From contig JAOHMI010000005.1 of the NCBI GenBank assembly GCA_028101965.1, forward strand, positions 1 to 64,000: a stretch of DNA of 64,000 nt. Direction: 5' to 3'. Numbering within the stretch: the first letter of the stretch is position 1; each line of letters begins with the position of its first letter. The position numbers and the translations under genes were made by a program. The notes beneath the pieces are model-generated. The model was not told where the DNA came from. It searched no databases and was given only the letters and a program-made list of their open reading frames with translations. This document shows, piece by piece, positions 5,705 to 57,760 of this stretch. The stretch comes from Bacteriovoracaceae bacterium (GTDB lineage: Bacteria > Bdellovibrionota > Bacteriovoracia > Bacteriovoracales > Bacteriovoracaceae).

Positions 5705-5725
5705 GAATGAATTAGGAGAATAATC

Positions 5726-33654: not shown

Positions 33655-33888
33655 TAGGAGAATAGAATTATTTATTAGGTTCTAAGTAATCTTTTTGTCT
33701 AAAAAAAATAACAATTTAGGTACTAAATGGAGGGAATAACTCTTATGACTGATGATATAACCACCTGATTATATGTGAATGTAATTGAATGAATAAAGAT
33801 TATTGATAGATTTTTCAGTCTTACTTTAACTAAATTTACAACTACCTATATTAAGCGCTGGTTAAACATTTTTTACGGGGTGAATAAG

Positions 33889-36081
33889 ATGGCACGTGCG
33901 TTTCCTTTCGCGATCCTAATCTTTCTATTAATCAATCTTGGTCTTTTAGCCCAAGAAGATGAAATCAATTTAGTACAAAACTCACAAATGTGGTTAGCTG
34001 GAGTTGATTTGACTCAAGACCCTAATACTTCTTTGAGCCCTTTTACATATTGTCCTACAGCGTGGAATCAATTCTCTTATGGTCTGCCCTTTATTAATTA
34101 TGGAAACTCAAACTGGGAAATTATGAGAATTCCCCCCTGGAACGGAACTCACAGTGAGTTTGGAATCATGCAAAACCTGGCCGATCAAATAGGGTGCACC
34201 CAGGGAAATATGACTTTGCCTAATCCCACTCAATTTTCCGGAGTAACTCCATTTCCAAGTATGGCAGCAACAGATCCCAATGGGGACATGAATGCAATTG
34301 CAGCATTATGGGCCATGAACGGAAATACCTATAGCGGATCACGATCTGAATACTTAAATGGTAAACTTACTCAAGATTTAGTTCCATTTATTCGCTATAA
34401 GGTTGCCTTTGATTATGCTCTTGCTCGAGCTTCTCGAGTTGGTTATCGCCGTTTGCATGCCTTGTTTTACGATGATCTTGGGGGAACTGTTAATCATTCC
34501 ATTCACCCGAATGCAATGTTTTCTGGGAGTTATGGAAATTTAGGTAACTCTGGATTCTATTTAAACTCAGATGAAAGCTTTTGGTTAAATAATGAAGGAG
34601 CCGGCTTATTGCGATTTGAGAAGCCACATGGTGAAGGGCCTTGGGGAATGGCCATAAAGAATGCTCAAGATAATTATGAAACAACATGGGAAAGAGTCGA
34701 ACTAAATAGCGATGAATTCTATCGCCCTCAAAGTCACCAACAAAATACTCTCACCATGGGCTTTTTCTATCAGCATGTTCAATCAGTAGGTTTTCAGCGT
34801 ATCACTTGGGATCTAGATGAACCGGATTCTTTTTCGGCATCTACTGATTTTGGTTTAGAAAGCAGTAATCCTCCTGATTCAAATTATAATTTCTCTACAT
34901 TTAATTTTTATGACAATGTCTCTGTCCACTGTCACTCGAATCCAATGTTTTGGGCGAGTAAGAATAGTCAGCAGCCAATTAATTTTCCTTATGATGAAGT
35001 AAAGCAGGTTAAATTAAGTTGTGGGGATGAACTTAGGATCAAACCACTATTAAAGTATGAAGATGACTTTGGGAACTTCAAAGAGTTTTATTTTGAATTA
35101 TTTAATCCAGATTATGATTCTTTAAAGAAGTTTTCTCACCAAGGGAGTCATACTAGTATTTTTCCTTTAATGAGTGATAATGAGTTAGAATCTGATTCTG
35201 TTAACTTAAGTAAAGAGTTTAATTTATACTCATATTTAAAGAATGAATTTGGACAGGAGAATATTTCTGGAAAAGAATATTTAATCTCTATGTCAACCAC
35301 TTGTCATGACACAAAATTAGACGAATCTTGGAGTGAAATTGCCGAAGAAGACTTTCTAAAAGTTTCGATTGATCCCTTTGACCCAAGTTTGGTCCAATTT
35401 GAATTGGATCAAGGGAGCTATGGAATTGACTTTCGCAAGCACTCTGCAACCCACTTTCAAATCAATCCAGGAAATTTTAAACAACAACAACATCAAATGT
35501 TTGAACAACATGGAATTGTAGCACGTATTAAAGGAACTGAGCAGTTATCAAATTATCAAGTAACTTGGGAAGTGTATAAAGTATATCCTGATAATACCAC
35601 TTCATTGGTTGGTTCTCCTATCATTAAAGTCGATGATAACGAATTTAGGGTTGGATTGGAAGAGCACTCGAGTGGTAGTAATTTTGACATAATCTTAGGC
35701 CTTTCATCATTTTATAAAATAACCGCAAAAGTTAAAACTATACATGACTGTATGGAAGAGAAAACCTTTGAATTCTCTGTGGATGTAGTGGAGAGCTTTT
35801 TCGTTCCCAATGCCTTTTCTCCTAATAGAAATGGGGTTAATGATTTGTTTGAAGTCTACTTTAAAAATCCGAGTCAAATAGACTTAACTTATTTTAGACT
35901 TTTTAATCGCTGGGGAGCATTGGTTTACGAATGTGCCGGAAATAATCCTACTCATTGTCAATGGAATGGTAAGTTTAAAAATGAAGATGCAGCAGTCGGA
36001 GTTTATGCTTGGATAATTTCCTTTAAAGCGGGAAATGGGAGAGAAGTGAATGATAGTGGCGATCTAACACTCTTACGTTAA
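33889..36081 (+). CDS. Secreted protein with a type-B T9SS / gliding-motility C-terminal domain
   Basis: The ORF opens at a GTG (33880); the ATG at 33889 has GGGGTG ~7 nt upstream and gives the signal peptide MARAFPFAILIFLLINLGLLAQ, so it is preferred (730 aa). Residues ~20-330 look like a carbohydrate- or ligand-binding module of the kind seen in Bacteroidota (EYLNGKLTQDLVPFIRYKVAF). The last ~85 residues are a CHU_C/type-B C-terminal domain: PNAFSPNRNGVNDLFEV, YFRLFNRWGALVYE, WNGKFKNEDAAVGVYAW, ending LTLLR. In Bacteroidota this directs secretion by the type IX system. Its presence here suggests transfer or an unsuspected T9SS; no T9SS gene is in the window. Confidence 0.82.
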   Translation: MARAFPFAILIFLLINLGLLAQEDEINLVQNSQMWLAGVDLTQDPNTSLSPFTYCPTAWNQFSYGLPFINYGNSNWEIMRIPPWNGTHSEFGIMQNLADQIGCTQGNMTLPNPTQFSGVTPFPSMAATDPNGDMNAIAALWAMNGNTYSGSRSEYLNGKLTQDLVPFIRYKVAFDYALARASRVGYRRLHALFYDDLGGTVNHSIHPNAMFSGSYGNLGNSGFYLNSDESFWLNNEGAGLLRFEKPHGEGPWGMAIKNAQDNYETTWERVELNSDEFYRPQSHQQNTLTMGFFYQHVQSVGFQRITWDLDEPDSFSASTDFGLESSNPPDSNYNFSTFNFYDNVSVHCHSNPMFWASKNSQQPINFPYDEVKQVKLSCGDELRIKPLLKYEDDFGNFKEFYFELFNPDYDSLKKFSHQGSHTSIFPLMSDNELESDSVNLSKEFNLYSYLKNEFGQENISGKEYLISMSTTCHDTKLDESWSEIAEEDFLKVSIDPFDPSLVQFELDQGSYGIDFRKHSATHFQINPGNFKQQQHQMFEQHGIVARIKGTEQLSNYQVTWEVYKVYPDNTTSLVGSPIIKVDDNEFRVGLEEHSSGSNFDIILGLSSFYKITAKVKTIHDCMEEKTFEFSVDVVESFFVPNAFSPNRNGVNDLFEVYFKNPSQIDLTYFRLFNRWGALVYECAGNNPTHCQWNGKFKNEDAAVGVYAWIISFKAGNGREVNDSGDLTLLR

Positions 36082-38329: not shown

Positions 38330-38764
38330 ATGCGAAACTTAATTTTACCATTACTTAGCTTATTTTTATTAGTCTCATGCTCTCAAATGAATTCTCGGGA
38401 GAGAGACTACTATAAAGAAAATAAAAAAATACGACATGGTATCGTTCCCACAGATTATCGGAAGACCAAGATTAATAATAATTCTCCAATTGATGAGGAT
38501 GCTGTCGCTCGGGGACAAGTTATCTACAAGCAAAATTGCTATAAGTGCCATGGAGCTCGCGGGGATGGAAAAGGTCCCGACGCGGTTAAAAATGATATGC
38601 AAGTGCGGAATCTTCGCGAAGTGGTTCAAACAGTTCCTAATTTTAAATTCTATATGATGATTTCTCAGTGGAAAGAAAATATGCCAGGATGGAAGGCCGC
38701 TTTTTCTCCAGATGAAATAAGTGATTTAGAGCAATACGTTCGTTCACTTCTTGCAAAAAATTAG
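38330..38764 (+). CDS. Mono-heme class I cytochrome c lipoprotein
   Basis: 144 aa with lipobox LLVSC (Cys17). Heme is attached at CYKCH (70-74), with a distal Met in KENMPGWKAAF and the C-terminal helix ISDLEQYVRSLL. Anchored in a membrane facing the periplasm, it passes electrons to an oxidase or other acceptor. AAAGG precedes the start. It is divergent from the exonuclease gene and stands just upstream of the CXXCH/porin fusion, which fits a shared redox role. Confidence 0.88.
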   Translation: MRNLILPLLSLFLLVSCSQMNSRERDYYKENKKIRHGIVPTDYRKTKINNNSPIDEDAVARGQVIYKQNCYKCHGARGDGKGPDAVKNDMQVRNLREVVQTVPNFKFYMMISQWKENMPGWKAAFSPDEISDLEQYVRSLLAKN

Positions 38765-38904: not shown

Positions 38905-40053
38905 ATGCCTTTAATCATTATGGCTTTTGCAATACTTTTTTCTCAAAACATTGAGGCGTATCCCTATATGATCGGGTATGGCTATGGTAGTTGTATTAAC
39001 TGTCATTATAATCCCTTTGGGAATGGTCCTCTGACGGACTATGGCCGTGCAGTGGGAGCGACGACTTTAACCGCAAGAACATTTTATGATGCTAAAACCT
39101 CCGATGAAGCTCTGGCAGAGAAATCAGGGTTTTTGTATTCACAACCTTCACAGGATTGGTTTCGACCTCAGGTAAATTATCGCGGATTGAATTTTACTTC
39201 TAATCAAGGAACGGATCAGGCGGCGGCAAAAGACATTACGATGATGCTAAATGCCAGCGGGGTGTTTAAGTTTGGAGAAGATGACAATGTTCTGGTTGTC
39301 TTGGAAGCAGGATATGCTCCAAGTCCTGCTGGAATAGAAGAAGATGATGAGCCAAATTATCGTTCACGTGAAAATTATGTGGGATATCGTCTACCGGAAC
39401 AAAATTATGGTTTTTATGTGGGTTTAATGGACAAAGTGTTTGGGATTCGAGTTCCAGATCATAATTTATATAGTCGTAGTGTTCCTCAATTAACCATGAA
39501 TGACCAAGCCCATAGTGCACTCTTTCATGCTTTCTCAGAAACATGGGAATTAGGATTGCAATATTTTATTGGAAACTTAAGTCAGGAAGAAGAGTTGAGG
39601 CAGCAAGGCTTTACTGGTAAAGCTGAGTATAGTTTTGATAAAAAAACTCGAGCAGGAGTTTCCTATTTGAGTAGTGAGAATGATTATTTAAAACTTAATA
39701 GTTATGCTCTCGAATTCCGGCAAGGATTTGGAACAGGTTCTGCCATCATGGCCGAATACGGGATGGTAACCCAAGAAATAATTTCTAGTGAAGTAGAGAC
39801 CTCGTCACAATATTTCACCACTCAGTCCTATGTCCGTTTGAATAGAGGGATTCATTTTGTCTACACTTATGAGTATTTGAAAAACGATATTGAAGAATAT
39901 GATCATCTCTACCGCATGGGTCCTGGTTTCCAATGGTTTCCTTTGCTCGGTGTTGAATTGAGAGTCGATATCTATAATAAAAAAGGATTTAGTGAAGTTG
40001 CCACTATCGAAGATAGCTGGGATCTCGCTGGGCAAGTACATTTATGGTTTTAA
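38905..40053 (+). CDS. Outer-membrane barrel with N-terminal CXXCH heme motif (porin-cytochrome fusion)
   Basis: 382 aa with a signal peptide (to ~NIEA). The mature N-terminus is a short heme module, YGSCINCHYNPFGNGPLTDYGR with heme site 30-34, of the C-x2-CH-x2-P-x-G-x-G-x2-x2-YGR type. The remaining ~320 residues alternate polar and aromatic residues and end in Phe (GQVHLWF), as outer-membrane barrels do. The layout suggests a heme plugging or lining an outer-membrane channel, which could carry electrons across the membrane. Electron transport across the membrane is inferred. Its end overlaps the next gene by 10 bp. Confidence 0.78.
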   Translation: MPLIIMAFAILFSQNIEAYPYMIGYGYGSCINCHYNPFGNGPLTDYGRAVGATTLTARTFYDAKTSDEALAEKSGFLYSQPSQDWFRPQVNYRGLNFTSNQGTDQAAAKDITMMLNASGVFKFGEDDNVLVVLEAGYAPSPAGIEEDDEPNYRSRENYVGYRLPEQNYGFYVGLMDKVFGIRVPDHNLYSRSVPQLTMNDQAHSALFHAFSETWELGLQYFIGNLSQEEELRQQGFTGKAEYSFDKKTRAGVSYLSSENDYLKLNSYALEFRQGFGTGSAIMAEYGMVTQEIISSEVETSSQYFTTQSYVRLNRGIHFVYTYEYLKNDIEEYDHLYRMGPGFQWFPLLGVELRVDIYNKKGFSEVATIEDSWDLAGQVHLWF

Positions 40054-41090
40054 GAATTTTTTTAATTTTTCTATTCTTAGTACCTGCGGCCTTTGCAAAA
40101 AGGAATATGTACAAATATGCCCAAAAGCTTCATCGCAAAGGTCAGTTTAAGCGTTCAAATAAAAAACTTAAGGGTTACTATGCTCCTCACCGAAAGAAAG
40201 CGAGTAAAGGTGTTTATAATTTGATGGCCTCAAATTATAAGAAAATGGGCCGCATAAGTAAGGCCAGAGATACCTATCTTCTTCTTATTAAGTTTCATTA
40301 TGCCCGTCAATTTAAGAAGCATTTAAGAGTTGCACAAAAAACCAGTATGGAGGGTTTTGATGCTAAAGTAGGGCCACAATTAGGTTCAGTGTATGTGCGC
40401 ATTGGTGGATTATATCTAACCCAAGTTCATCAAAAGTTTAGCAAAGGTGACGATTACGCAAAAGAGTACCGCTTATCCAAAAGATTTTTTATCTGGGCTT
40501 CTCGTGCTCCTGGACGAGTCGGAGAGAAAGGGGAAAAAGGATTATCCTCTCTAAAAAGATTCGACAAAAAAATAGAACAAAGAGAGATGACTTATCAATT
40601 TGGAATTCGTTTTGGCCATATGCTGTGGACTGATAAATTTGTTTTAAAAGATACAGTTCGAGATCGCGAGCAAGACTTTTTAGGTAACTCAAAGGCGACT
40701 ACCATGCTGCTTGATATCCGCTATCGTAATGAAATGTACTATTATGGAATATTAATTGGCGGTTTTCAGGGTGTTTCAACAGTAGGTGAGAAGAACAATT
40801 ACTTTGTTAAAGATGCAACAGTTTTAGGGGGACTTCTTATTCCAAATATTCACACCATGTCTGTTTATCATGGAGCAAGCTTTGGCGTTTCAACTCCAAT
40901 CATGATTCGCTCTACTGATGTGAATGATTCACAAACTAAAGAGATTAATCCAAAAAGTACCACTGCTGTGGGGCTTGGAATCGATGGAAATTGGGAGTTA
41001 GAAAATGGGTTTACCTTGGGCATGAGCACTGCTTGGCTTTCCAATACTCATAGTTCGACCATCCGATTCGAAATCGGTTACCTCTTTTGA
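40044..41090 (+). CDS. Outer-membrane barrel with N-terminal TPR-like helices
   Basis: 348 aa with a signal peptide (to ~AAFA). Residues ~20-175 are basic helices with TPR-like spacing (YKYAQKLHRKGQFKRSNKKLKGYY, KMGRISKARDTYLLLIKFHY). From ~185 the sequence is barrel-like and ends EIGYLF. It overlaps the heme-porin gene by 10 bp, so the two are translated together and probably form one outer-membrane complex (inference). The stop codon is also the first base of a long repeat. Confidence 0.72.
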   Translation: MVLRIFLIFLFLVPAAFAKRNMYKYAQKLHRKGQFKRSNKKLKGYYAPHRKKASKGVYNLMASNYKKMGRISKARDTYLLLIKFHYARQFKKHLRVAQKTSMEGFDAKVGPQLGSVYVRIGGLYLTQVHQKFSKGDDYAKEYRLSKRFFIWASRAPGRVGEKGEKGLSSLKRFDKKIEQREMTYQFGIRFGHMLWTDKFVLKDTVRDREQDFLGNSKATTMLLDIRYRNEMYYYGILIGGFQGVSTVGEKNNYFVKDATVLGGLLIPNIHTMSVYHGASFGVSTPIMIRSTDVNDSQTKEINPKSTTAVGLGIDGNWELENGFTLGMSTAWLSNTHSSTIRFEIGYLF

Positions 41091-41543: not shown

Positions 41544-42707
41544 ATGCTTTATGAAAAAGAAAGACACACTAAAATAAAAAACATTGCATGGTCCGAAGAA
41601 ATTGCTTGGGAAAAAATCAATAATATTTTTGAAGAAACAATAAGCTCTTTTAAAAGAAAAAAATTTTGGAAGACTCACCCTGATGAAGATAATAAAAGAG
41701 AATTTTTGAAAACTTTGTATTATGGAGCTTCAGGTACTTTATGGGGATTAATACAAATCTCAGAGGTACTTAATAGAGAACTTCCATTTGATTGCAAGAA
41801 AATTATAATCGATATTACTGATGCTTATTTAGATGAACCTGACACCAACGAAGTAATCCCATCTTACTTTGTTGGAATTGTAGGAATTCTAGCAATCAGG
41901 TATAAAATTACTCCTGATGAAAAAACTCGTAACTTAATCAGTGATTATATTTCAAAGAATACAACAAACCCAGCGAATGAAGCATATATAGGGAATGCCG
42001 GGACAATTTTAGCTTCTCTTTTTCTATATGATTGGGAAAGGGACGATCATTGGAAAGAGCTCTTTCTTGAAAATGCAAATTACTTGTTTAATGAATGGCA
42101 ACAAGACAAGGATGGTAAATGGATTTGGGTTCAAGATCTCTATGGAAAAAAAAGAAAACTGATCGGAGCTGCTCATGGCTTTTTTGGTAATGTCTTTCCA
42201 TTATTAAAAGGTATGGACCTACTTTCGGAAAAACAAAGAAAATTACTAATAGAAAGGACTATATATACAACTTTAGATTCTGTTGAAGAAGATATCAATT
42301 ATGCAAATTGGCCAGATAAGTTCACTAGTGAAGATAGAAAAATGAGAGTTCAGTGGTGTCACGGGGCTCCTTCGGCAATTGTTTCACTATCTCCTTTTCC
42401 AATAGGATACTCCGATGAAATTGAGTCGATTTTGTTGAAAGCAGGAGAGCTTATTTGGGAATCGGGTCCTCTTTTAAAAGGAGTTGGAATCTGCCATGGC
42501 ACCGATGGGAACGGTTATTCTTTTTTAAAACTTCATGACCGGTCAGGTGACAAAAAATGGCTAGAAAGGGCAAGATCATTTGCAATGCATTCAATTTATC
42601 AAAGTAATGGAAGACACACTCTTTGGACTGGTGATATTGGACTTGCCCTTTATCTAATTTCTTGTATCAAGAAGAATGCAAACTTTCCAACTCTTGATTA
42701 TCTATAG
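41544..42707 (+). CDS. LanC-like (lanthionine synthetase C-like) protein, orphan
   Basis: 387 aa, cytoplasmic. The double-barrel LanC/LANCL fold is indicated by repeated G-x-x-G segments and by the zinc site: Cys272 in WCHGAPS and Cys317-His318 in GICHGTDGNGYSFL. Other marks are GAAHGFFGN and the terminal WTGDIGLALYL. In lanthipeptide synthesis LanC adds Cys to dehydrated Ser/Thr; stand-alone LANCL relatives add glutathione to dehydroamino acids in proteins. No LanB, LanM or precursor gene is nearby, so the second role is more likely (inference). It lies after the 41088-41429 repeats and may be acquired. Confidence 0.88.
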   Translation: MLYEKERHTKIKNIAWSEEIAWEKINNIFEETISSFKRKKFWKTHPDEDNKREFLKTLYYGASGTLWGLIQISEVLNRELPFDCKKIIIDITDAYLDEPDTNEVIPSYFVGIVGILAIRYKITPDEKTRNLISDYISKNTTNPANEAYIGNAGTILASLFLYDWERDDHWKELFLENANYLFNEWQQDKDGKWIWVQDLYGKKRKLIGAAHGFFGNVFPLLKGMDLLSEKQRKLLIERTIYTTLDSVEEDINYANWPDKFTSEDRKMRVQWCHGAPSAIVSLSPFPIGYSDEIESILLKAGELIWESGPLLKGVGICHGTDGNGYSFLKLHDRSGDKKWLERARSFAMHSIYQSNGRHTLWTGDIGLALYLISCIKKNANFPTLDYL

Positions 42708-44054: not shown

Positions 44055-44441
44055 TTATTGAGTGTATAACTCAATCCAATTGAGAATGGCATCGTAATCA
44101 GCATCATTGAGAGCTGAACCATCCTTAGGCATCGTTCCACCTTCATTAATTAAGTACTGAAATAAAGTGGAGTCATCACTATTTCCAGGTAGGATCAAAT
44201 CATTGTCTACAAAGTCCTCAGAAGAGAAGTCTGCATAGTTCGAATGATAATTAGTATGACAGTTTACACACTGATTCAGTATAACTTGTTGGGCTAGGCA
44301 CCAGCGCAGAGCCGCTCCAGAACCGGAACAAGTGACACTTTCTAATTCCGCATCACCCGAACTAGAATTATAGGTTTGTTGATTACAACCTGTGAGAACC
44401 ATTAAAACAGCGACCACTTTAAATAGAGAAACTATTTTCAT
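44055..44441 (-). CDS. Mono-heme cytochrome c-like lipoprotein
   Basis: 128 aa with lipobox LTGC (Cys19). The heme site is CVNCH (58-62); the C-terminal block GGTMPKDGSALNDADYDAILNWIE supplies Met as the likely sixth ligand and the closing helix. An extra Cys pair (VTCSG, LRWCLA) may form a disulfide. This resembles cytochromes that accompany DUF1501/DUF1588-type systems. An AGGAG box lies upstream. It is divergent from the multi-heme operon starting at 44715. Confidence 0.85.
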   Translation of the reverse strand: MKIVSLFKVVAVLMVLTGCNQQTYNSSSGDAELESVTCSGSGAALRWCLAQQVILNQCVNCHTNYHSNYADFSSEDFVDNDLILPGNSDDSTLFQYLINEGGTMPKDGSALNDADYDAILNWIELYTQ

Positions 44442-44714: not shown

Positions 44715-46205
44715 ATGGATTGGATTTTGAACAAGATTTTATTTACTTCCTTCATTCTCACAAGCCTTTTTATTTCAAGCTCGATGGCACAGGTAACAAA
44801 ACGGGATCAGGCAAAACAGTTGTACGAATCCTTGGTAAAATTGCCTCCAACAAAGCTAGAGCTAGACTTTGTTGAAACCTATATCGAGAATAATGACTAT
44901 GAAACAGTTGCTAGTATAATAATTGATCCTCATAGTCCTTCTGCTCCAGCGAATCATCCAATTAACAGTATGGGAGCTTTTTATTCGGTAAATTTACAAA
45001 ATATGGTATCAAGATGGACCAATACTGAAAGCAGTGCTCAAGTTCCATTAAATGATATGACTGCATCGATTTTAGGACAAGTTAAAGAAAACCGATCATT
45101 TAAAAAACTATTCTATGAAGATATTTATTATCTTGTTTCAGGTGTCGTTGGTTCACAATACTTTGCTTTTCAATTACCTAATTATCCTTCAAACTCTATC
45201 TTACCGTCTAATATTCCTACTTCTGCACGTCCTCAAGCTGCTTGCGCAGAGGTAATAAGCAATACTCAGAATGCTAATAGCAAAGTTTTTGTTTATTACC
45301 AAAACCCTACCAATCCAAATAATCCAGCAGATAAAGGCTGTAGAGTTTCTAATAATTATACCATGTCTAGAATTAACACTTGTAAAGGCGTTGATTGTCT
45401 CTATGTTCCAAATCAAGATTTTCTTCTTGATGCTGGTATAAAAGTACAAACCAGTAATAGTCATTTTTCCGAATTTGAGCAGGGTTATTTTGATTTAAGT
45501 GAGTCTAACATTTTACAACGGACTTCTCAGATGGGAACTTCCACTGAAAGAGAAGGTGCTATCGCAGGTATTTTTAGTATGCGAGCTTGGGGAGCTTCAT
45601 ACTATTCAGCTGGAACGAACCGCCGGGCGGTGGCTTTTGCAATGAAAAATTTCATGTGTAAAGAAATGGAAGAGCTTAACGATACCACAATTCCTGACTT
45701 TCGAGTTCGCCGAGATGTTGATCGAGCTCCCGGAGATCAGCCATTAATTTTTCAAACTAAGTGTGTTGGTTGTCATGCCGGAATGGATGCTCTTGGTGGG
45801 GCATTTGCTTATTATAACTTCCCTGCTGGTGCCATTGATTATGAAGAAGGTGTGGTGGTTGAAAAAATGTACCATAATCCAGTTTATGCCAACGGTTATG
45901 TAACGAATGATGATAGTTTTATTAATCTTTGGACTCAAGGAAAAAATGCAGACTTAGGATGGAGAGGACCCGCTTCAGGAAATGGTGCAAGAATGTTTGG
46001 ACAAGCGATCACTCAGTCTGATGCATTTGATACTTGCATGACCAAACAAGTAGCCGATAGTGTCTGTTCAAAAGTAAAATACACTGTCTCAGAGGATCAG
46101 TATTCCGATATTATTGCAAAGTATGCATCTGAGTTTCGTTCTCATGAAAACTTAAAAAAGCTTTTTATTGATTTAGCAACTGAATGTACAAAGGCGTACC
46201 AATGA
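44715..46205 (+). CDS. Exported mono-heme protein, DUF1588-like region (operon gene 1)
   Basis: 496 aa with a signal peptide (to ~SMAQ). The C-terminal part carries NRRAVAFAMKNFMC and KCVGCHAGMDALGGAFAYYNF (heme Cys350/Cys353/His354), which resembles the DUF1588 block of planctomycete cytochromes. QSDAFDTCMTKQVADSVCSK near the end may correspond to DUF1585. The N-terminal 200 residues are unassigned. It overlaps the next gene by 4 bp (ATGA), so it is translationally coupled. A perfect TTGACA is at 44659-44664 but no clear -10. Likely periplasmic redox or binding role. Confidence 0.8.
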   Translation: MDWILNKILFTSFILTSLFISSSMAQVTKRDQAKQLYESLVKLPPTKLELDFVETYIENNDYETVASIIIDPHSPSAPANHPINSMGAFYSVNLQNMVSRWTNTESSAQVPLNDMTASILGQVKENRSFKKLFYEDIYYLVSGVVGSQYFAFQLPNYPSNSILPSNIPTSARPQAACAEVISNTQNANSKVFVYYQNPTNPNNPADKGCRVSNNYTMSRINTCKGVDCLYVPNQDFLLDAGIKVQTSNSHFSEFEQGYFDLSESNILQRTSQMGTSTEREGAIAGIFSMRAWGASYYSAGTNRRAVAFAMKNFMCKEMEELNDTTIPDFRVRRDVDRAPGDQPLIFQTKCVGCHAGMDALGGAFAYYNFPAGAIDYEEGVVVEKMYHNPVYANGYVTNDDSFINLWTQGKNADLGWRGPASGNGARMFGQAITQSDAFDTCMTKQVADSVCSKVKYTVSEDQYSDIIAKYASEFRSHENLKKLFIDLATECTKAYQ

Positions 46206-46873
46206 AATATTTAATATTTTTAATCACAATAGCTTTCTTTGTCTCTTGTAATTCGAATAAGGATGCAGATCTCGAAGTTGATGAGTCAACCTCTGAAACG
46301 GAAAGTCAGTTTAATCCTCATGATTTCGGTGATGGTGATGGCAGTCAAGTTATCTCTGGAGCTCAAACACTCTTATCTCAAACAGATGAAGGTTATAGAA
46401 CTTTTAAGTCCTTGAATATGACTTATGCCAAGTTAACTGGAGTAAGTCCCGTTGAAGTAGAACCAATTTATCAAGTGATACAAACTTCTCTCGCAGCGGA
46501 AAGCCATCCAGATCTTGCTACTCGTTTTCATGCATTAGCCGCAGCTCGGTTAGCTGATGCTTACTGCCACCTATATATAGAAAGAGACAAGTTGGGTGTG
46601 AACTTTAGCACGGCAACAGCAAATCAAATATCAAATAAGTTTATTGATAACTTTCTTGATGAGAGAAAGCCTGGAGACTATAACTATATTCGGATAGAGC
46701 TGGAGAAGCTTTTAAATAATGAGGTGATCGATCCCTTTGATGGAACACGCTTTATTGACCCAGTGGCCAATACTTCAGAGAAGAATAAAAGATTATCTAA
46801 GCTAGCCTGTGTTGCACTTTTTGCTAGCTATCCCATTGCGGGAAATCCCAGCATAAGAAATTTTGGAAATTAA
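46202..46873 (+). CDS. Lipoprotein (operon gene 2)
   Basis: The ORF track opens at 46184, but the ATG at 46202 overlaps the previous stop as ATGA and gives lipobox FFVSC, so it is chosen (223 aa). The mature part is acidic then helical: DLATRFHALAAARLADAYCHLYIERD and NKRLSKLACVALFASYP, two Cys in helices. No heme site. Family not recognised. Its place between two heme/Tat genes suggests an assembly or docking lipoprotein, which is inference. Confidence 0.72.
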   Translation: MKYLIFLITIAFFVSCNSNKDADLEVDESTSETESQFNPHDFGDGDGSQVISGAQTLLSQTDEGYRTFKSLNMTYAKLTGVSPVEVEPIYQVIQTSLAAESHPDLATRFHALAAARLADAYCHLYIERDKLGVNFSTATANQISNKFIDNFLDERKPGDYNYIRIELEKLLNNEVIDPFDGTRFIDPVANTSEKNKRLSKLACVALFASYPIAGNPSIRNFGN

Positions 46874-46890
46874 AAGAATAGAGGATACTT

Positions 46891-48585
46891 ATGACAACTA
46901 AGAAAACTGACCGAGAAATTGATCTTGAATTGAAAAGAGAAAAAGAAGTTCAAAAGAAAATTAACGAACGTCATGAACGAGATAGAGTTGCCGAAAAAGT
47001 AGCGAGGGAACGTAAACCTATCCATCATTGCTTAACTCGAAGAGATTTTCTATCTCAAGGTTTAATTATGGGCGGGGGAGCCTTTTTTACAACCGGCTTG
47101 TCATCTCTTTTAACCTCCAATACTGCAAATGCTTCTTTATTACAAACACATTTAGGTGAGCTAGTCACTGCCAATAATCCCATTCTATCCATTGATCTAG
47201 CCGGAGGGGCCAACTTATTAGGTGGTGGTGCAGTCGTTGGATTTGCCGATACAGAAAATCAATTGGATGTAGGAACCAATTCGGGAAGCTATATTCAGTT
47301 AGGTATACCTAGTAATCTTCATCCTAAAAATGATGCTAATGTTGATTCTCAATTTGGTTTGAAATTTCATCGCTCATCTGGTTTTCGTCAAGGACTTATT
47401 GATGGGATAGGACATGATCCCAATGATCCTGCTTCCCCACCAGATTTAGCCGAATATATAGATGGTGTTATTGCTTGTGCAGTCACCGCTGATGATAGTG
47501 CCGCCAATGCCATTAATCCACTCTATGCAATTAATCATGTTGCTAATAATCGAGGAAAGCTCGTTGCGGCCGTGGGAACTCAACCAAATGCTTACGGAGG
47601 AAAATCAGTTGGTCCGGCTCAAGATATGAAAGCTGCTTGGCGACCATCAAATATTTCTGTTGGTAATGCGGAAGCGGATGCAGCAGGTCTAGTGTCAGTT
47701 GGGAGAAATATCATGGAGCCAGGTATCTTGGATGCACTAGGTCCTAAGGGACAATTTAGACTTGAAAAATTTATGGAAATTGTAGGAAACATCACCAAGA
47801 AAGATATGGACCGAGTGGTTGGAGGTCGTCATCAAAATACATTAGTGGCAAACAAAATTCGTTCATTAGCGAATGACTCTTCAAAACTTTTTGATACTTA
47901 TGGGCCAGAAAAATTAAAGCCTACAGACTCAGAAGTTGTTGCTCATGTGCAAGCTATCTTTGGCGATGGTAATGGAAATATTAGTAATAATAATATGCAG
48001 CATGCAGCGATCATGAATTTAATCGTTAAAGGAATTGCCACTACGGGAACGATTCAAATCGGTGGTGCTGATTATCATAATGGAACAAATATGACTGGTT
48101 ATAATGTAGATCGAAATGCCGGTCTAGCTGTCGCTCGGTTTTTTAGAATGTGCCACGCTGAAGAGCGGAATGGAGTTGCCTATATTTGTACTGATGGTGG
48201 TGTTCGTGGAAATACTGCAGGTCAACTAGACCCAGACAATGGAAATGTTGTTTGGCAGGGGGATTCAGGAGCACGATCTGGTATAATTATACTTAGATAT
48301 GTTCATGGTGTAAAAAGAATTGATAACCCTAACGGTGGCTCAAATCTTATTTATGGAAAAAGACAAATAGGCTGGTATGCGGAAAATGGTGGTGCTCAAT
48401 TGGGAAGCAGTCCATTTATAAATTCACCACATTTACTTACTCGATTGATAACCGCAAATTATATTGCATCCATGTTGGATACAACTGATCGAGATGAAGC
48501 GAGGACAATCGCAGGGGATATTATGATTCAAAAATTTGGTGGAGACTGGAAGCCTTCATGGAATAAATATATAAGGTGCTGTTAA
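46891..48585 (+). CDS. Tat-exported DUF1501-like protein (operon gene 3)
   Basis: 564 aa. A charged N-terminal stretch of ~45 residues precedes a Tat signal, LTRRDFLSQGLIMGGGAFF (RR at 50-51), ending NTANA. The body is long and hydrophilic with DLAGGANLLGGGAVVGF and YHNGTNMTGYNVDRNAGLAVARFFRMCHAEE. This resembles DUF1501-type alkaline-phosphatase-superfamily proteins, which travel with large cytochromes in Planctomycetes, but the match is only moderate and the metal ligands are not certain to my eye. Folded in the cytoplasm and exported by Tat, it probably holds a cofactor or metal. The gap to gene 4 is 17 bp. Confidence 0.75.
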   Translation: MTTKKTDREIDLELKREKEVQKKINERHERDRVAEKVARERKPIHHCLTRRDFLSQGLIMGGGAFFTTGLSSLLTSNTANASLLQTHLGELVTANNPILSIDLAGGANLLGGGAVVGFADTENQLDVGTNSGSYIQLGIPSNLHPKNDANVDSQFGLKFHRSSGFRQGLIDGIGHDPNDPASPPDLAEYIDGVIACAVTADDSAANAINPLYAINHVANNRGKLVAAVGTQPNAYGGKSVGPAQDMKAAWRPSNISVGNAEADAAGLVSVGRNIMEPGILDALGPKGQFRLEKFMEIVGNITKKDMDRVVGGRHQNTLVANKIRSLANDSSKLFDTYGPEKLKPTDSEVVAHVQAIFGDGNGNISNNNMQHAAIMNLIVKGIATTGTIQIGGADYHNGTNMTGYNVDRNAGLAVARFFRMCHAEERNGVAYICTDGGVRGNTAGQLDPDNGNVVWQGDSGARSGIIILRYVHGVKRIDNPNGGSNLIYGKRQIGWYAENGGAQLGSSPFINSPHLLTRLITANYIASMLDTTDRDEARTIAGDIMIQKFGGDWKPSWNKYIRCC

Positions 48586-48602
48586 AAGAGTTAGGGAGAG
48601 GT

Positions 48603-51600
48603 ATGAAAGTTTCAAAGCTGATTTTTTTATTAATGGCAATGCTTGCGCTTCCATCCTGTATTCCAACAGGTGGCGGAGAAGGTGAGCTTGAGGTCGCAGA
48701 AAGTATAGTTGCTAGCGATGAAGATATTGCTGGCACATTAATTGGACCTGGCGGAGCAAGTAGCTTTGAAGCATTTAAAGCCACAGTCTATCCCTTAGTT
48801 CGTTCAAAAACTTGTGTTGGTTGTCATGATTCAGGTCAATCACCTCAATTCGCTGAAGAAGATCCAGTAAAAGCTTATAATAATTTAGTATCCACAGGTA
48901 AAGTCAATCTAGCCAATCCCGGTAGTAGCCGGATTGTTGTGAAGATAGAGAATCAATCTCACAATTGTTGGTCTAACAATTGTGGAAATGATAGTAACGA
49001 AATGTTAGTCCAGGTTCAACGCTGGGCGGATATGATTAAAGACAGCGATGAGATTGTCAATTCCGGAGCCCAATTTCTTACGACTGACTTGGGATTCCCA
49101 AGTTCCTACTTACCTGCTCAAACAGAATACGGATTAACAATTATCGATGCTGAACAAGATGATCCAACGGTCCAGCATGGTCGGTTTAAAACAAAAATTG
49201 GTAATGGAGCAGTTAACGGAAAGTTGATTGATACAGCTTACGCTATTCCTAATCCGCTATCAGATGTTCCGCGCGAGCTTACCTTACATGTTGATTTGAA
49301 AGGGGGCAATTGCGAAACCTTTGAAATGAATGAGATAAACGATCCTAAAAATGGTCCAGTTAGAATAAATGAAGGTGAAGTTCATGTAAACTCAGGTAGT
49401 CGAATAGGGAGTAACAGTCTACCTATTAGAGATGGATACCGCTTCTATCGAATGTTGGCTTTAGGAAATATGATCAGGCCTGACATGAGGGTTGAGTATG
49501 GAAAAAAACTTCTAAGTGGAAATTATGCTCAAGTTTCAGAAATGTTTTTAAACACAAATACCAGTAATAATCAAAGCAACTTTGAAGACTACACCCGAGA
49601 AGATGGGGCTGATTTCCCCATAATGATTGGACCGGCCGTAGCGGTTCGATTATTTTATACAGCTCCTTACTTTACTCGATATGAAGAAATATTTGATAAC
49701 AATGGAAACTTAAAATCAGCTGGGAATACTTTTACTGATTTATGGCAAGAGCAAAAAAATGTCTATGAATTATTTAAAGGCGGATCCTTTGATGCCAATA
49801 ATGATTTGATTCGAAGAAAACTTGAACAAGATGTTAGTGTTGACCGAAAAATGTTGGGTTACTATCGCCTTAAAAAAGCCATCGATACTAACTTAAGTTC
49901 TACTTATACTACTTCAAGTACAAACCCCATGTTTACTGTTTACCAAAATAACAAAGAAGCATTCTTTCAACTTTCTAGTGAAGTTAAACTTCGCTGTAAG
50001 TATGCTCCAAGTGAAGCAAATAATTATATTTGGCCTGGGTGTGATAATAATCCTCAGGGATCAAGCCAGTGCCCTAATTATCAATTTTACAAAGGTAAAA
50101 GAACTTGTGGTCCGACAGCTCGGCGAGATAACTTTGAGTGGTATATCGCAAGCAGCGAAGGTGAAGCATTAACTTACGGGAATGCTAGAGATAAATTAAC
50201 CATTGATAATAATGATAATATTATTCCGGCGACCAGTGGAGATATTGCAGCTGGAAATTTCTTTGAAAGAATTGATTTATACTTTTATACAGTTATAGAT
50301 ACGAGTACTATTTTAACCGGTAACTCTGGCAACAGCACCGCAAATTTTTCCATTAGCCAAATGGTGAGCACCTCTCCTAATAATTATGTTAACAATGAAG
50401 GCTTCACTACGGCTTCAACTCAGAACTTTGATTTTTATGATGGAGCAGCCGACACTTACAATCTTGATTTAAGTAATATTTTAAAAGGCTCCGAAGAAAG
50501 TGTAAGTCCAAGTGTAGAATTGCAAACTTTTGAGTCTACGTTATTTGCTGAAATACGATCACAAAATTGTGTGAATTGTCATGGTGTCGGTCAGAACCCT
50601 ACCTTTGCTGTTTCAGAAGCGGCTACAGCTTTACAAATAATTAAATCAAATAATTTAGTGAACTTTACGAATCCATCCGCCTCTTTTCGACCCGGAGAAA
50701 TGGTCCATAATACTGGAGGAGCAGATCCATCAGCTGTGCGAACAGCTTTTATAAACGCAATTAATTCTTGGAAAGCGCAAATGGATGCAACGGTGAATGG
50801 TGATGACTTTGGTCCCATGGAAGATAGGGAGCGAATTCCAGGATATGCTAATTATAAAGTTAAAATTAGAGATGGTGAAGCTGGCTATTATAATGTTTGG
50901 TTAAGAACTAAAAAATCTGGCAGTGTGACCAATGCACGAGTTTATTTTCAATTAAAAAATAGTTCCGGAAATATTTTACAAATAAAAAATAATGTTTCAA
51001 ATAATAATGGTGGAAACAATGTTGGAAATTGTATTAGTCATGCTTTCTCCAATGAACAATTTCGATGGCAAACTTTTGGTCGAGATCAGGAACTTGCGGC
51101 CATTGATAGTTTCACCGGTAGACGATTACTCAATAATGATCAAAACCCAATTCCAATTGGCGACGAAAGGCAATATTATTATTTGACTCCAGGTGAATAC
51201 ACTTTATCTATTTATGAAGGAAGTTCTGGAGCGGGAATTGATGCTATCGCCTTTAACCGTGTGTTCGGCAGTAATGCAGATATCGATCAAGCTTCAAGCT
51301 CAAATAGTATGACTGAGAAAAATGTGGATGAATTACTTGAGTTTCAACCTGATTTAATTGAAAGACATAGTAAGCATGTTCATGATTATCATCGATATGT
51401 CTTAAAATATGATATCTCTGAATTACTACAATTAACTGGAGGAGATAAAGCTTACTTTGAAGTTGAGGTTAAAGAGAAATTTAGTAGCAATGTTTATGAA
51501 TTCCGTTCTCCTCGAATAAATTATCCAAATGGAGCCGGTAAGGGAAAATCTGTTCGAGCGAAAAATATTTTTCTGTATATTAACGGTCAAACAGCACAAA

Positions 51601-52898
51601 CTGATAAAACATTTGAAAAAATTGATGGTTACTATGGAGACAATCGTGTCATAACATATGCTCCTTTAGTTGCATTAAAAGAAGGGAACTCTAGTACTGA
51701 TACCTTCGCTTTTGGTTTTGAAGAATTATCATTGTCTGACTATAGTAACTTAAGTGAAATAAAACCAGCTGGAGACTTGCCAGAAGGCCCGGCAATGAGA
51801 CAATGCCGAGAACTTGCTCTTTTTACCAATACGGTCAAACCTATTATTACAAATGTTACTGTTACATTAAATAATTCTCAGAACGGATTAGAAAATAGTT
51901 TAAATGGATCTTGGCCGGGAAATCCTCAGCAAAGAAATGTAAACCTTGATGTTTATATGTGCCGTGGGTGTCATACGGCAGAACATCCTTATTTTAAAAT
52001 GGCCAGTTATGAGGCTAATGATAACTCCTTATGTGAGCAGATGCTTAGCAGAGTTAATTTTAACAACTATTATGCTTCACAAATTTTAAAAGGAATTGAT
52101 ACTGCTGGGCCTCATCCAAAATTTAGCTTTTTAGAAGAGCTTTTTTGGGCTGACTCAAGCAAATTAAGGTATAAAATTCACGATCAAGGGAATGACTATA
52201 TTAAAGGATATATTTTAAAAGATACGGCTAATGGGTTTGCCTCAAAAATAATCAATCGGGGATTTGAAATTTATCGCCCAGAAGATTTTGGTATGACCTT
52301 AAATACTGATTATTTTTCTCTATCAGATAATGATAAGGCAAAAGCTAGACTGATTGGTCAAATTAAACGTCCACGATTTATAAATTTACCACAAGTAAAT
52401 TCTCAGCAAGATAATGAGAACAATTATAATGGCTATTTTATTGAAGAAGAGCATGGTCAATTTGATGGCACCACTCGGGGAGAAAATGACTTTGTTGGCT
52501 CAAATATTTCTCCAGACCCTGGTGTACATGGAGACCCCGTAAATCCTGACTTATTTCCTATCAAAACCAACCGAGGAGGAGGGTCAGCTGGAAGAGCGGT
52601 CTATTATCACTTCAATGAGCCGGCTTATCTTAACGATCCAATCGGTACGATGCCTCCCTCATTTGCTACAGGAAATGGAGTTTCGAATATGCAGGTTAGC
52701 TGGCGTTATCAAAAATCAGGCTTTGGAGGCGAGTCAAGAAGACTATCTTCAATCGATTATGATGGTAATGGATCTTATGAGAATAATAAGAATCTATTTT
52801 ATGAAGATGAAGCCCGAATTAATGAAAAAGCGCGTGAAGCTATTTATAACTGGATTGTCAAAGAGCATGCTGCATGCCAAGCAGCAAACGATTGCTAA
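48603..52898 (+). CDS. Large three-heme-motif lipoprotein with sugar-binding-like domains (operon gene 4)
   Basis: The ORF opens at 48576, but the ATG at 48603 has GGGAGAG 5 nt upstream and gives lipobox ALPSC; 1431 aa. CXXCH sites: CVGCH at ~71-75, CVNCH at ~656-660 and CRGCH at ~1120-1124. The first two sit in duplicated modules (FKATVYPLVRSKTCVGCH, FESTLFAEIRSQNCVNCH). Between them are jelly-roll, carbohydrate-binding-like stretches (YNVWLRTKKSG; YYLTPGEYTLSIYEGS). The closing third resembles planctomycete cytochromes. Likely anchors to the outer membrane or periplasmic face and transfers electrons linked to polymer binding; that is inference. Confidence 0.82.
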   Translation: MKVSKLIFLLMAMLALPSCIPTGGGEGELEVAESIVASDEDIAGTLIGPGGASSFEAFKATVYPLVRSKTCVGCHDSGQSPQFAEEDPVKAYNNLVSTGKVNLANPGSSRIVVKIENQSHNCWSNNCGNDSNEMLVQVQRWADMIKDSDEIVNSGAQFLTTDLGFPSSYLPAQTEYGLTIIDAEQDDPTVQHGRFKTKIGNGAVNGKLIDTAYAIPNPLSDVPRELTLHVDLKGGNCETFEMNEINDPKNGPVRINEGEVHVNSGSRIGSNSLPIRDGYRFYRMLALGNMIRPDMRVEYGKKLLSGNYAQVSEMFLNTNTSNNQSNFEDYTREDGADFPIMIGPAVAVRLFYTAPYFTRYEEIFDNNGNLKSAGNTFTDLWQEQKNVYELFKGGSFDANNDLIRRKLEQDVSVDRKMLGYYRLKKAIDTNLSSTYTTSSTNPMFTVYQNNKEAFFQLSSEVKLRCKYAPSEANNYIWPGCDNNPQGSSQCPNYQFYKGKRTCGPTARRDNFEWYIASSEGEALTYGNARDKLTIDNNDNIIPATSGDIAAGNFFERIDLYFYTVIDTSTILTGNSGNSTANFSISQMVSTSPNNYVNNEGFTTASTQNFDFYDGAADTYNLDLSNILKGSEESVSPSVELQTFESTLFAEIRSQNCVNCHGVGQNPTFAVSEAATALQIIKSNNLVNFTNPSASFRPGEMVHNTGGADPSAVRTAFINAINSWKAQMDATVNGDDFGPMEDRERIPGYANYKVKIRDGEAGYYNVWLRTKKSGSVTNARVYFQLKNSSGNILQIKNNVSNNNGGNNVGNCISHAFSNEQFRWQTFGRDQELAAIDSFTGRRLLNNDQNPIPIGDERQYYYLTPGEYTLSIYEGSSGAGIDAIAFNRVFGSNADIDQASSSNSMTEKNVDELLEFQPDLIERHSKHVHDYHRYVLKYDISELLQLTGGDKAYFEVEVKEKFSSNVYEFRSPRINYPNGAGKGKSVRAKNIFLYINGQTAQTDKTFEKIDGYYGDNRVITYAPLVALKEGNSSTDTFAFGFEELSLSDYSNLSEIKPAGDLPEGPAMRQCRELALFTNTVKPIITNVTVTLNNSQNGLENSLNGSWPGNPQQRNVNLDVYMCRGCHTAEHPYFKMASYEANDNSLCEQMLSRVNFNNYYASQILKGIDTAGPHPKFSFLEELFWADSSKLRYKIHDQGNDYIKGYILKDTANGFASKIINRGFEIYRPEDFGMTLNTDYFSLSDNDKAKARLIGQIKRPRFINLPQVNSQQDNENNYNGYFIEEEHGQFDGTTRGENDFVGSNISPDPGVHGDPVNPDLFPIKTNRGGGSAGRAVYYHFNEPAYLNDPIGTMPPSFATGNGVSNMQVSWRYQKSGFGGESRRLSSIDYDGNGSYENNKNLFYEDEARINEKAREAIYNWIVKEHAACQAANDC

Positions 52899-55175: not shown

Positions 55176-55339
55176 TAAAAATATCTTTTCTCATAGCTTT
55201 CATCATGAAAGTAAATCGAATTTAAATATAAAGTCTTTTGATATCATGTACTTAGGATGTAAATCGTTTTTACCTTTTATTTCTATAAAATAGCTCTTTT
55301 TATTAAATTGAGGTATATAATAGGGTAAGGAGAATGCTT

Positions 55340-56416
55340 ATGAATAGTCATAGCGAACCCTCTCAAAATTCTGCACCAGAGATTGAAAATCATTGTTGCC
55401 CCAGTAAAAAGAAAAAAGATTATTTTTTCTTTTCCTTAGTTGGAGTTTCACTTGTTTTTTACTTCGGACACCTTTTAAGTTTAGTCGAGATTACTCTTCC
55501 CCATCAAATCAAGCACCTGTTTCATCACTTCTTTGAATTAATTAATAAAATGAGTTTAGGAATTATTATAGGAATTGTTTTTGTGGGTGTTTTAAGTCAT
55601 GTCCCCCGAGAATATGTCATTTCAATTTTAGGCAAACCAGGTAGTCGCTGGAGCTTAGTTAGGGCCACCATGGCAGGGGTTCTGTTAGATTTATGTAGTC
55701 ATGGGATTCTCATGGTGGGGATGCAGCTCTACCGGCGAGGGGCCGGTATTGGACAGGTAATGGCTTTTCTTATTGCTTCTCCTTGGAATTCACTATCTTT
55801 AACGATTATTTTATTTACTCTCATTGGGATTAAATACACTTTACTGTTTATATTCCTCAGTATGTTTATAGGCTTAATTACTGGAAAATTATTTGATATA
55901 TTGACCATAAAAAAAATGATTCCTCTGAATCCAAATCAAGTTGAACTGCCAGATAATTTTAAACTAATTCCAAATCTAAAAAAAGATCTAGCTAAAGTAA
56001 ATTTCAACTTTAAACTTGTCTTTGATATTATTTGGGGTGGGGTAAAAGAATCAAAAATTATTGTAAAGTGGTTACTTTTCGGTAGTATCCTGGCTTCTTT
56101 AATAAAAATTTTTGTGGATCAAGGAATTTTTCAAAATTATTTTGGCCCATCTCTCATAGGACTTCTTTTAACCTTAGCGGCCACAACAATTATTGAAGTT
56201 TGTTCTGAAGGAGCAACTCCAATTGCTGCGGATTTGTTAACCAGGGCAAATGCTCCTGGAAATAGCTTTACTTTTCTTATGGCCGGAGTGGCCACAGACT
56301 ATACAGAAATCGTTTCCATTAAAGAGACCATGAAATCCTGGAAGATTTCACTCTTACTTCCACTTCTGACTGTTCCTCAAATTTTAATTCTTGGATATAT
56401 CCTCAATACGTTCTAA
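55340..56416 (+). CDS. SO_0444/ArsP-type permease, putative metal exporter
   Basis: The ATG at 55340 is chosen over 55334 because AAGGAG sits 7 nt before it; 358 aa. N-terminal cytoplasmic stretch has HCCPSKKKK, a likely metal-binding Cys pair, followed by 8-10 membrane segments in two homologous halves. Signatures are GVLLDLCSHGILMVGMQLYRRGAG and EVCSEGATPIAADLLTRANAPG, as in DUF318/ArsP-family permeases and the SO_0444 Cu/Zn efflux group. Substrate is not proven: Cu, Zn or organoarsenical are options. A TATAAT at 55316-55321 would give a 12-nt leader. Confidence 0.8.
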   Translation: MNSHSEPSQNSAPEIENHCCPSKKKKDYFFFSLVGVSLVFYFGHLLSLVEITLPHQIKHLFHHFFELINKMSLGIIIGIVFVGVLSHVPREYVISILGKPGSRWSLVRATMAGVLLDLCSHGILMVGMQLYRRGAGIGQVMAFLIASPWNSLSLTIILFTLIGIKYTLLFIFLSMFIGLITGKLFDILTIKKMIPLNPNQVELPDNFKLIPNLKKDLAKVNFNFKLVFDIIWGGVKESKIIVKWLLFGSILASLIKIFVDQGIFQNYFGPSLIGLLLTLAATTIIEVCSEGATPIAADLLTRANAPGNSFTFLMAGVATDYTEIVSIKETMKSWKISLLLPLLTVPQILILGYILNTF

Positions 56417-56428
56417 AGAGAATCATCT

Positions 56429-57760
56429 ATGAAAAATTTAATTAGTTTCTTATTCTTATCCTTCTTTTATTTATCTTACTCAAGCTCACATGAAAAAGTA
56501 ATTAAACCAATGGATTTCAGTAGTGCCATTCACCAAACGAAGCAAGAACTTATTTTAAATGGAATTTATGAAGCGATTCTTAAGGTGAGTGAGAAAGAGT
56601 TAATTAAAGAGGAAAAGGAAAAACCTAAGTCGAGTTTGAATGAAGGTAGGCGGGGAACAATGATTGTGGAAGAGATGATGCGCAAAAACCGAGAGAGGTT
56701 AGCGGCTCAATCGGGATTAGACCCAAACCAGGCAAAGTCGGGTAAAGATATAGTAAATTTTCAAAAAAAAGATAATAAGAACATGATCCAGGAAATGGAC
56801 CGTCAAGTGAAGAAGGCCAAAGATTGGAAAGAGCTAGCTCAAAGTGAAATAGATATGATTCGAGCGAGTGTAATGCAAAAGTGGAAAGAAAAAAATCAAA
56901 AAGTTTTACAAGATTGGAAACAGCAAAAAATTCTCTATAAAAACAATGTTAATAAATATGGCAAGACAACCTTTGATATTCCCTTAGTTCTTCCTGTAAA
57001 TGAAGCAGATCTAAAAAAATCCCTTAAGAAAAAAGTTTCAAAAGAATCTTTTGTGGTGGCAAATTCAATGGGGATGAAAGTGAAGAACCAGAAGTTTCGC
57101 GCCACTTGTGCTAGCTTTTCAGGACTGCGGTCACTGGAAATTTTGCTTGGTCAAAATCAATATGATCTTGATTTAAGTGAGCAGTATTTCTATTGGGCTT
57201 CCAAAAGTGACTGTCAAAATAAAAAATGCTCTAGTCGTGGTTCTTGGGTGGGACATGGGCTTAAGTTTTCACAGAATGCTTCCAAACATGACATTCCATT
57301 AGAGGAAGATTGTCCTTATAATCCTTTTTCAGCAGGTCAAAATGAAACTCAAATACCGCTTAAAAATTCCTGCGATCAAGGAAAAGTAAAAATTGGGCAT
57401 TATAATTATCATAAAACACTGGATGAGTTGATCGAAGCTCTTCATCAAAATACTCCAGTGGTGATTGGTACTTATTTAACTCCAAACTTTTATGATGCTG
57501 ATTCCCTTATTTTAGAGCGGAATAAAAATGAAGGTCGGAAAAAGATGGATTCACACTCTAAGGGGCACTCTCTTTTAGTTGTGGGTTATGTGAAGTTACC
57601 TCAGGTTCTTAACGAAGGAAATCTTTGCTTAATTGTGACAAATAGTTGGGGCGAAGGTTGGGGGTTTGGTGGCTATTCATGTCTTTCTGAAAAATGGTTT
57701 CTGGAGCAACGACAAGCAAATCCATTTGTTTCCATCGATTTAGTTAGCTATCGAAAATAA
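56429..57760 (+). CDS. Exported papain-family (C1A) cysteine protease
   Basis: 443 aa with a signal peptide (to ~SYSSS). Residues ~25-200 are a charged, helical pro-region. The catalytic domain (~205-440) has all four key residues: oxyanion Gln221 and nucleophile Cys227 in KNQKFRATCASFSG, His380 in KGHSLLVVGY, and Asn405 in VTNSWGEGWGFGGY. It acts outside the cytoplasm on protein, in a predator probably on prey protein (inference). It follows the permease gene by 12 bp, so the two may share a transcript. Convergent with the glycosyltransferase; no bases between stops. Confidence 0.9.
   Translation: MKNLISFLFLSFFYLSYSSSHEKVIKPMDFSSAIHQTKQELILNGIYEAILKVSEKELIKEEKEKPKSSLNEGRRGTMIVEEMMRKNRERLAAQSGLDPNQAKSGKDIVNFQKKDNKNMIQEMDRQVKKAKDWKELAQSEIDMIRASVMQKWKEKNQKVLQDWKQQKILYKNNVNKYGKTTFDIPLVLPVNEADLKKSLKKKVSKESFVVANSMGMKVKNQKFRATCASFSGLRSLEILLGQNQYDLDLSEQYFYWASKSDCQNKKCSSRGSWVGHGLKFSQNASKHDIPLEEDCPYNPFSAGQNETQIPLKNSCDQGKVKIGHYNYHKTLDELIEALHQNTPVVIGTYLTPNFYDADSLILERNKNEGRKKMDSHSKGHSLLVVGYVKLPQVLNEGNLCLIVTNSWGEGWGFGGYSCLSEKWFLEQRQANPFVSIDLVSYRK

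Follow-up and report, generated by a model that had tools for sequence, protein, structure and literature searches.

A conserved heme/Tat operon of Bdellovibrionota that often adjoins a second cassette built around a predicted mono-heme barrel protein

We describe an ancient gene set that is held together across the phylum of predatory bacteria, Bdellovibrionota. Because it is so often kept beside a predicted heme-carrying outer-membrane pore, we regard the operon as probably an undescribed machine for moving electrons across the cell envelope. The stretch of DNA analysed, 64,000 nucleotides long and referred to here as the window, lies on a contig of a 2.78-Mb genome (66.6% complete) whose relatives are Bdellovibrionota. 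The four genes have the positions and tight spacing that an earlier note on this DNA had claimed for them: A and B overlap by 4 bp, and gaps of 17 bp separate B from C and C from D.

Gene A, 44715..46205, + strand: exported mono-heme protein of 496 aa, by profile a remote relative of PSCyt3 (DUF1588/DUF1585) proteins; CXXCH at 45762-45776
Gene B, 46202..46873 from its ATG (a longer reading frame starts at 46184), + strand: small lipoprotein with an FFVSC lipobox
Gene C, 46891..48585, + strand: Tat-exported protein of 564 aa with RRDFL at residues 50-54 (47038-47052), remotely DUF1501-like, with a predicted fold that may be like that of the alkaline-phosphatase superfamily
Gene D, 48603..52898 from its ATG, + strand: lipoprotein of 1431 aa with an LPSC lipobox; CXXCH at 48813-48827, 50568-50582 and 51960-51974

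None of the four proteins passes any Pfam or NCBIfam cut-off, and an Rfam search matched zero RNA elements. The source genome encodes a cytochrome c assembly protein; TatC was not detected in this 67%-complete assembly.

Inheritance of the operon across Bdellovibrionota

Of 59 genomes searched with C, 18 proved to have a relative, at 26%-38% identity. From 18 regions and a further 20 in other families we compiled 40 C loci, covering about a dozen Bdellovibrionota families in all. A lies near C in 38 of them, the two exceptions both beginning at contig edges, and the order A-B-C(-D) is retained in nearly all. The lipoproteins B and D, which the earlier note had presented as additions to a known pair, are themselves conserved, each being found in 37 of the 40 loci.

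The earlier note had put up co-occurrence across genomes and retention of the heme motif in orthologues for checking, and on both counts the operon held. Profile matches among 369 genomes (161 for C, 164 for A) fell together in 154, with A alone in 10 and C alone in seven, 17 single occurrences altogether. All 39 A-type proteins compared have exactly one CXXCH. The gap between A and C matches was 640-1190 bp in 33 sampled genomes. Distances of C correlate with those of A (r 0.87) and B (0.84), which indicates that these genes travel as a unit; the correlation between C and Y, a neighbouring gene described below, is 0.54. Chance gene order was rejected on the strength of co-occurrence, Y-A proximity, conservation in the 40 loci and distance correlation. 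We therefore have high confidence that the operon is real, conserved and co-inherited. A scan with a Bdellovibrio-like A gave matches solely in Bdellovibrionota MAGs, and a degenerate scan of named genomes found no close relatives of C.

Several other features of the window were recorded: a 733-aa protein (33880-36081) carrying CHU_C, a sorting domain for type IX secretion (PF13585, 53.6 bits), here in a Bdellovibrionota genome; two tandem lipoproteins (4508-6982) with short glycine/tyrosine-rich repeats and Yae1_N-like and FliH-like matches; an ArsP_1-type permease (55334-56416), SO_0444/SaoE-like but scoring under NCBIfam cut-offs; and a protease of the papain family whose N-terminal part is long (56429-57760).

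Genes A and C and their remote relatives

Profile comparison relates A, remotely, to the planctomycete PSCyt3 (DUF1588) proteins. The DUF1588-like block that had been noticed in it stays below the Pfam threshold (PF07627, 13.9 bits against a cut-off of 27), with matches at E <= 1 in five of 19 A members (best 4.6e-4), and comes out in profile-profile alignment. Against canonical PSCyt3 proteins, hhalign gave Prob 96.7 and E 4.5e-10 over 285 columns that take in the CxGCH heme block and the flanking helical domains. A also aligned, at Prob 98.1 over 194 columns, with the heme protein from a sister heme/DUF1501 pair. Sequence searches found no solved relatives, and for A a fold search found none either.

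For C, the label "DUF1501-like" stood as to Tat export and failed as to a Pfam match; what is left is a remote relationship. C had zero matches in Pfam, DUF1501 included (PF07394, gathering cut-off 27 bits), the best DUF1501 match among 19 C members had an E of 0.051, and the source genome has no DUF1501 over the Pfam cut-off. By hhalign, C and canonical DUF1501 align at Prob 86 over 71 columns around a DxH motif. R50, R51, D394 and H396 are invariant in the 19 C members, the last two within a GG-x-D-x-H motif that is likewise invariant in seven canonical DUF1501 members. C differs from DUF1501 in being without SEF(G)R and DHG: both motifs (SEFGR and DHG), invariant in canonical members, are absent in all 19 C members, and C shows TDGG and GDSG there. 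DUF1552 was rejected as the family of C, the likeness being confined to the Tat signal.

The kinship that the earlier note had drawn with the planctomycete pairs is borne out, in that the operon is conserved, heme-bearing, exported or lipidated, and of PSCyt/DUF1501-type relationship. In Planctomycetes and Verrucomicrobia, PSCyt3 (DUF1592-DUF1588-DUF1585) is paired with DUF1552, and PSCyt2 with DUF1501; the function of the PSCyt genes is stated as unknown (PMC5615132). Those pairs and the present one share an exported mono-heme helical protein whose gene adjoins that of a Tat-exported protein. They differ in that A and C fall under the Pfam cut-offs, that A is PSCyt3-like yet C is not DUF1552-like beyond its Tat signal, and that the operon here adds the conserved lipoproteins B and D and has a heme-barrel cassette nearby. 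With the DUF1501 proteins that accompany DUF1800, C shares Tat export, the DxH motif and the remote profile similarity; its partner A bears heme, whereas canonical DUF1501 neighbours in the phylum had no heme in the flanks that were fetched. The source genome also holds a separate, second heme/Tat pair (locus L139; G000, contig C24, 6060-9977), whose PSCyt3 protein passes the Pfam cut-off and whose Tat-signal protein, encoded after it, has no Pfam match.

The predicted structure of C (AlphaFold2, pLDDT 65) bears a marginal resemblance to the alkaline-phosphatase superfamily, to which nearly all of its best Foldseek matches belong (E 5e-3 to 0.1; alkaline phosphatase, EptA/MCR, LtaS and iPGM at the top). 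C might be a catalytically active, metal-dependent member of this superfamily, a hydrolase or transferase whose substrates are lipids or glycans of the envelope; the heme proteins would then regulate it or sense redox state. The fold matches fit such an enzyme, as do S163, D394, H396 and D435, invariant in the 19 members, and D102, kept in 18. But these matches are marginal even at their best, C has no phosphatase match in Pfam, and the second-site "DH" and last His of the superfamily are missing in all 19 members along with SEFGR and DHG. The lack of the DH and DHG residues makes classical two-metal catalysis doubtful, and we consider an active enzyme of this kind decidedly unlikely. The incomplete set of metal-site residues also counts against the electron-transfer model that we prefer, in which C would probably bind metal.

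The neighbouring cassette with a predicted heme barrel

New here is that the operon often adjoins a second cassette, composed of Y, Z, a His/Met cytochrome lipoprotein and sometimes a YceI protein. The window carries the following parts of this conserved neighbourhood, of which the Y-Z genes (38905-41090) were not in the earlier note:

Class I cytochrome c lipoprotein, 38330..38764, + strand: 5' of Y; PF13442 41.6 bits, PF00034 34.4 bits
Y, 38905..40053, + strand: CXXCH at 38992-39006 near the N-terminus, then an outer-membrane beta-barrel predicted from sequence, with HLWF at the C-terminus
Z, 40044..41090, + strand: TPR-like N-terminus and a predicted barrel; always adjoins Y in relatives
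g0, 44055..44441, - strand: mono-heme (His/Met type) cytochrome c lipoprotein, divergent from the operon and a recurrent neighbour of it

The divergent cytochrome lipoprotein g0 had been pointed out before, and its lipobox Cys, CXXCH and axial "MP" proved invariant in 10 aligned relatives; the lipoprotein at 38330 matches the g0 HMM weakly. Many relatives have a fuller cassette of Y (ending in HLWF or HLWL), Z, g0, W, which has a YceI domain, and X, which is like signal peptidase II but carries an additional tail. Neither W nor X was seen in the window, and X was not found in the source genome, which is 67% complete. Y starts 5.8 kb from A, and Y-Z is separated from A, which lies downstream, by ∼3.6 kb and two unrelated genes. 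A LanC-like (lanthionine synthetase C-like) protein is encoded between Z and the operon (41544-42707; PF05147, E 7e-33).

Of 82 genomes that had both Y and A among the best matches listed, 52 carry the two less than 15 kb apart, a figure that is approximate because it draws on those matches and on many fragmentary assemblies; ∼1% would be expected from chance position. The whole set occurs together in three families (f1, f6 and f8), and at one locus (L097) A-B-C-D-W-g0 all lie on one strand. A genome that we take to be B. bacteriovorus HD100 has the complete locus, with Y-Z followed by W-g0-D-C-B-A on the opposite strand; there A-B-C-D spans about 2435071-2440310 and the open frame of Y, of uncertain start, about 2431184-2432752. 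At six loci (L155, L156, L165, L169, L170 and L171) a sister heme/DUF1501 pair replaces A-C beside Y, W and g0, mostly with Z as well. Y itself is commoner than A-C (222 of the 369 genomes), and two families (f11 and f25) have A-B-C with no Y nearby, so Y is not obligatory and the cassettes are modular. In one genus X and Y are fused in a single frame (L152, 7463-9421; L153, 5630-7594), with a puzzling topology.

Y resembles the fused cytochrome-porin Cyc2 in having, in a protein of 382 aa, a single N-terminal CXXCH (invariant in 11 members) joined to a predicted barrel. Published criteria for Cyc2 are a single CXXCH, a length of at least 365 aa, AXPXFAR[Q/K][T/Y] upstream of the CXXCH and PXL downstream of it (PMC8406198). 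AxPxF stands just before the CXXCH in eight of the 11 Y members and is followed by IGYG-type residues; Y lacks the completed AXPXFAR[Q/K][T/Y] and the PXL, and the likeness is drawn from these published criteria. With MtrAB and MtoAB the locus shares a (here predicted) outer-membrane barrel, cytochromes and lipoproteins in one place. It differs in having no multiheme (deca-heme) partner, the heme being on the barrel protein itself; proteins of the locus have at most three CXXCH sites, in contrast to the inserted multiheme cytochrome of the MtrAB type.

A heme barrel and lipoprotein cytochromes at the outer membrane, with YceI-like and signal-peptidase-II-like partners in relatives, could also serve iron or heme acquisition or sensing, or redox sensing, in place of respiratory electron carriage. 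However, the conserved set lacks a TonB box and includes neither a receptor nor a regulator or transporter, and covalent c-type motifs fit heme uptake poorly; we consider this reading very improbable.

Electron transfer and polymer processing as possible roles for the locus

The CXXCH sites of D, three as the earlier note had counted, start at residues 71, 656 and 1120. The duplicated modules it described around them come down to two clear copies, the first two (36% identity over 55 aa, E 1e-10), and a third that is marginally similar. D in the window is at the large end of its kind: among 36 D-type proteins, 17 have one CXXCH, 16 have two and three have three, and most relatives are shorter, with one or two hemes. 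In some relatives the B slot is fused to a heme domain. The sugar-binding-like regions that had been suggested for D drew no support from domain matches within the window's D, and Pfam and domain comparison found no carbohydrate-active enzyme or sugar-binding domain anywhere in the window's operon.

These domain results bear on a polymer-processing role, in which C and A would act jointly on a polymer (carbohydrate) of the envelope or of the cell's surroundings, cutting or modifying it where B and D bind it, the hemes would shuttle electrons in the periplasm only, and the barrel cassette would be a substrate channel or a frequent yet separate neighbour. Some relatives do have LamG3 (one of nine), Calx-beta or LapA domains in the B/D slot. 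Likewise, the PSCyt proteins of Planctomycetes and Verrucomicrobia are fused to carbohydrate-binding modules and lie near sulfatases (PMC5615132), and DUF1501-DUF1800 genes accompany bacterial chitin synthases (PMC5122149). Most D relatives, however, have no domain of the LamG3, Calx-beta or LapA type, no sugar-related domain was found in the window's operon, and what recurs beside it is not glycosidases but cytochromes and a heme barrel. Given that two different heme/Tat pairs are repeatedly linked to one heme-barrel cassette, we prefer envelope electron transfer over polymer cutting alone, and rate polymer processing as unlikely. The polymer oxidation or sensing that the earlier note had offered as a role likewise drew no support.

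That the operon is a redox system of the envelope, and one coupled to Y, we hold with moderate confidence. The fuller account that we favour, tentatively and with a reasonable chance of its being right, is that A-B-C-D form an envelope complex working with the outer-membrane mono-heme barrel cassette (Y-Z and the cytochrome lipoproteins) for electron transfer. The Tat-exported C and the heme protein A would be its core pair, tethered at the outer membrane by B and D to make a single complex. The heme modules of D would relay electrons, the lipoprotein cytochromes (g0 and that at 38330) may connect the system to the respiratory chain, and Y, as a plugged barrel with one heme, would conduct electrons through the outer membrane. 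Against this account stand the wider spread of Y, the families with no Y near the operon, the two unrelated genes that part Y-Z from A in the window, and the failure to detect TatC in the 67%-complete assembly. By analogy with Cyc2, the direction that we prefer is one in which the system would oxidise a donor, either outside the cell or in the periplasm; confidence in any assignment of donor or substrate is low. Literature searches by HD100 gene number, and for extracellular electron transfer in Bdellovibrio, brought up nothing usable.

Heme/DUF1501-type pairs are abundant in Planctomycetes and Verrucomicrobia, and this locus is a compact and strongly conserved version of them whose constant partners can now be named: two lipoproteins, a mono-heme barrel and a His/Met cytochrome. 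Since the genetically tractable HD100 has a complete copy, its function can be addressed by gene deletion. It is possible, though we hold it more doubtful than the complex proposed above, that predatory and related bacteria, HD100 included, have an undescribed trans-outer-membrane electron pathway: a barrel with one heme would be the conduit, and its head, for catalysis or docking, would be the planctomycete-type heme/Tat pair with its alkaline-phosphatase-like subunit. If true, the PSCyt/DUF1501 class, so far unexplained, would thereby gain a function.
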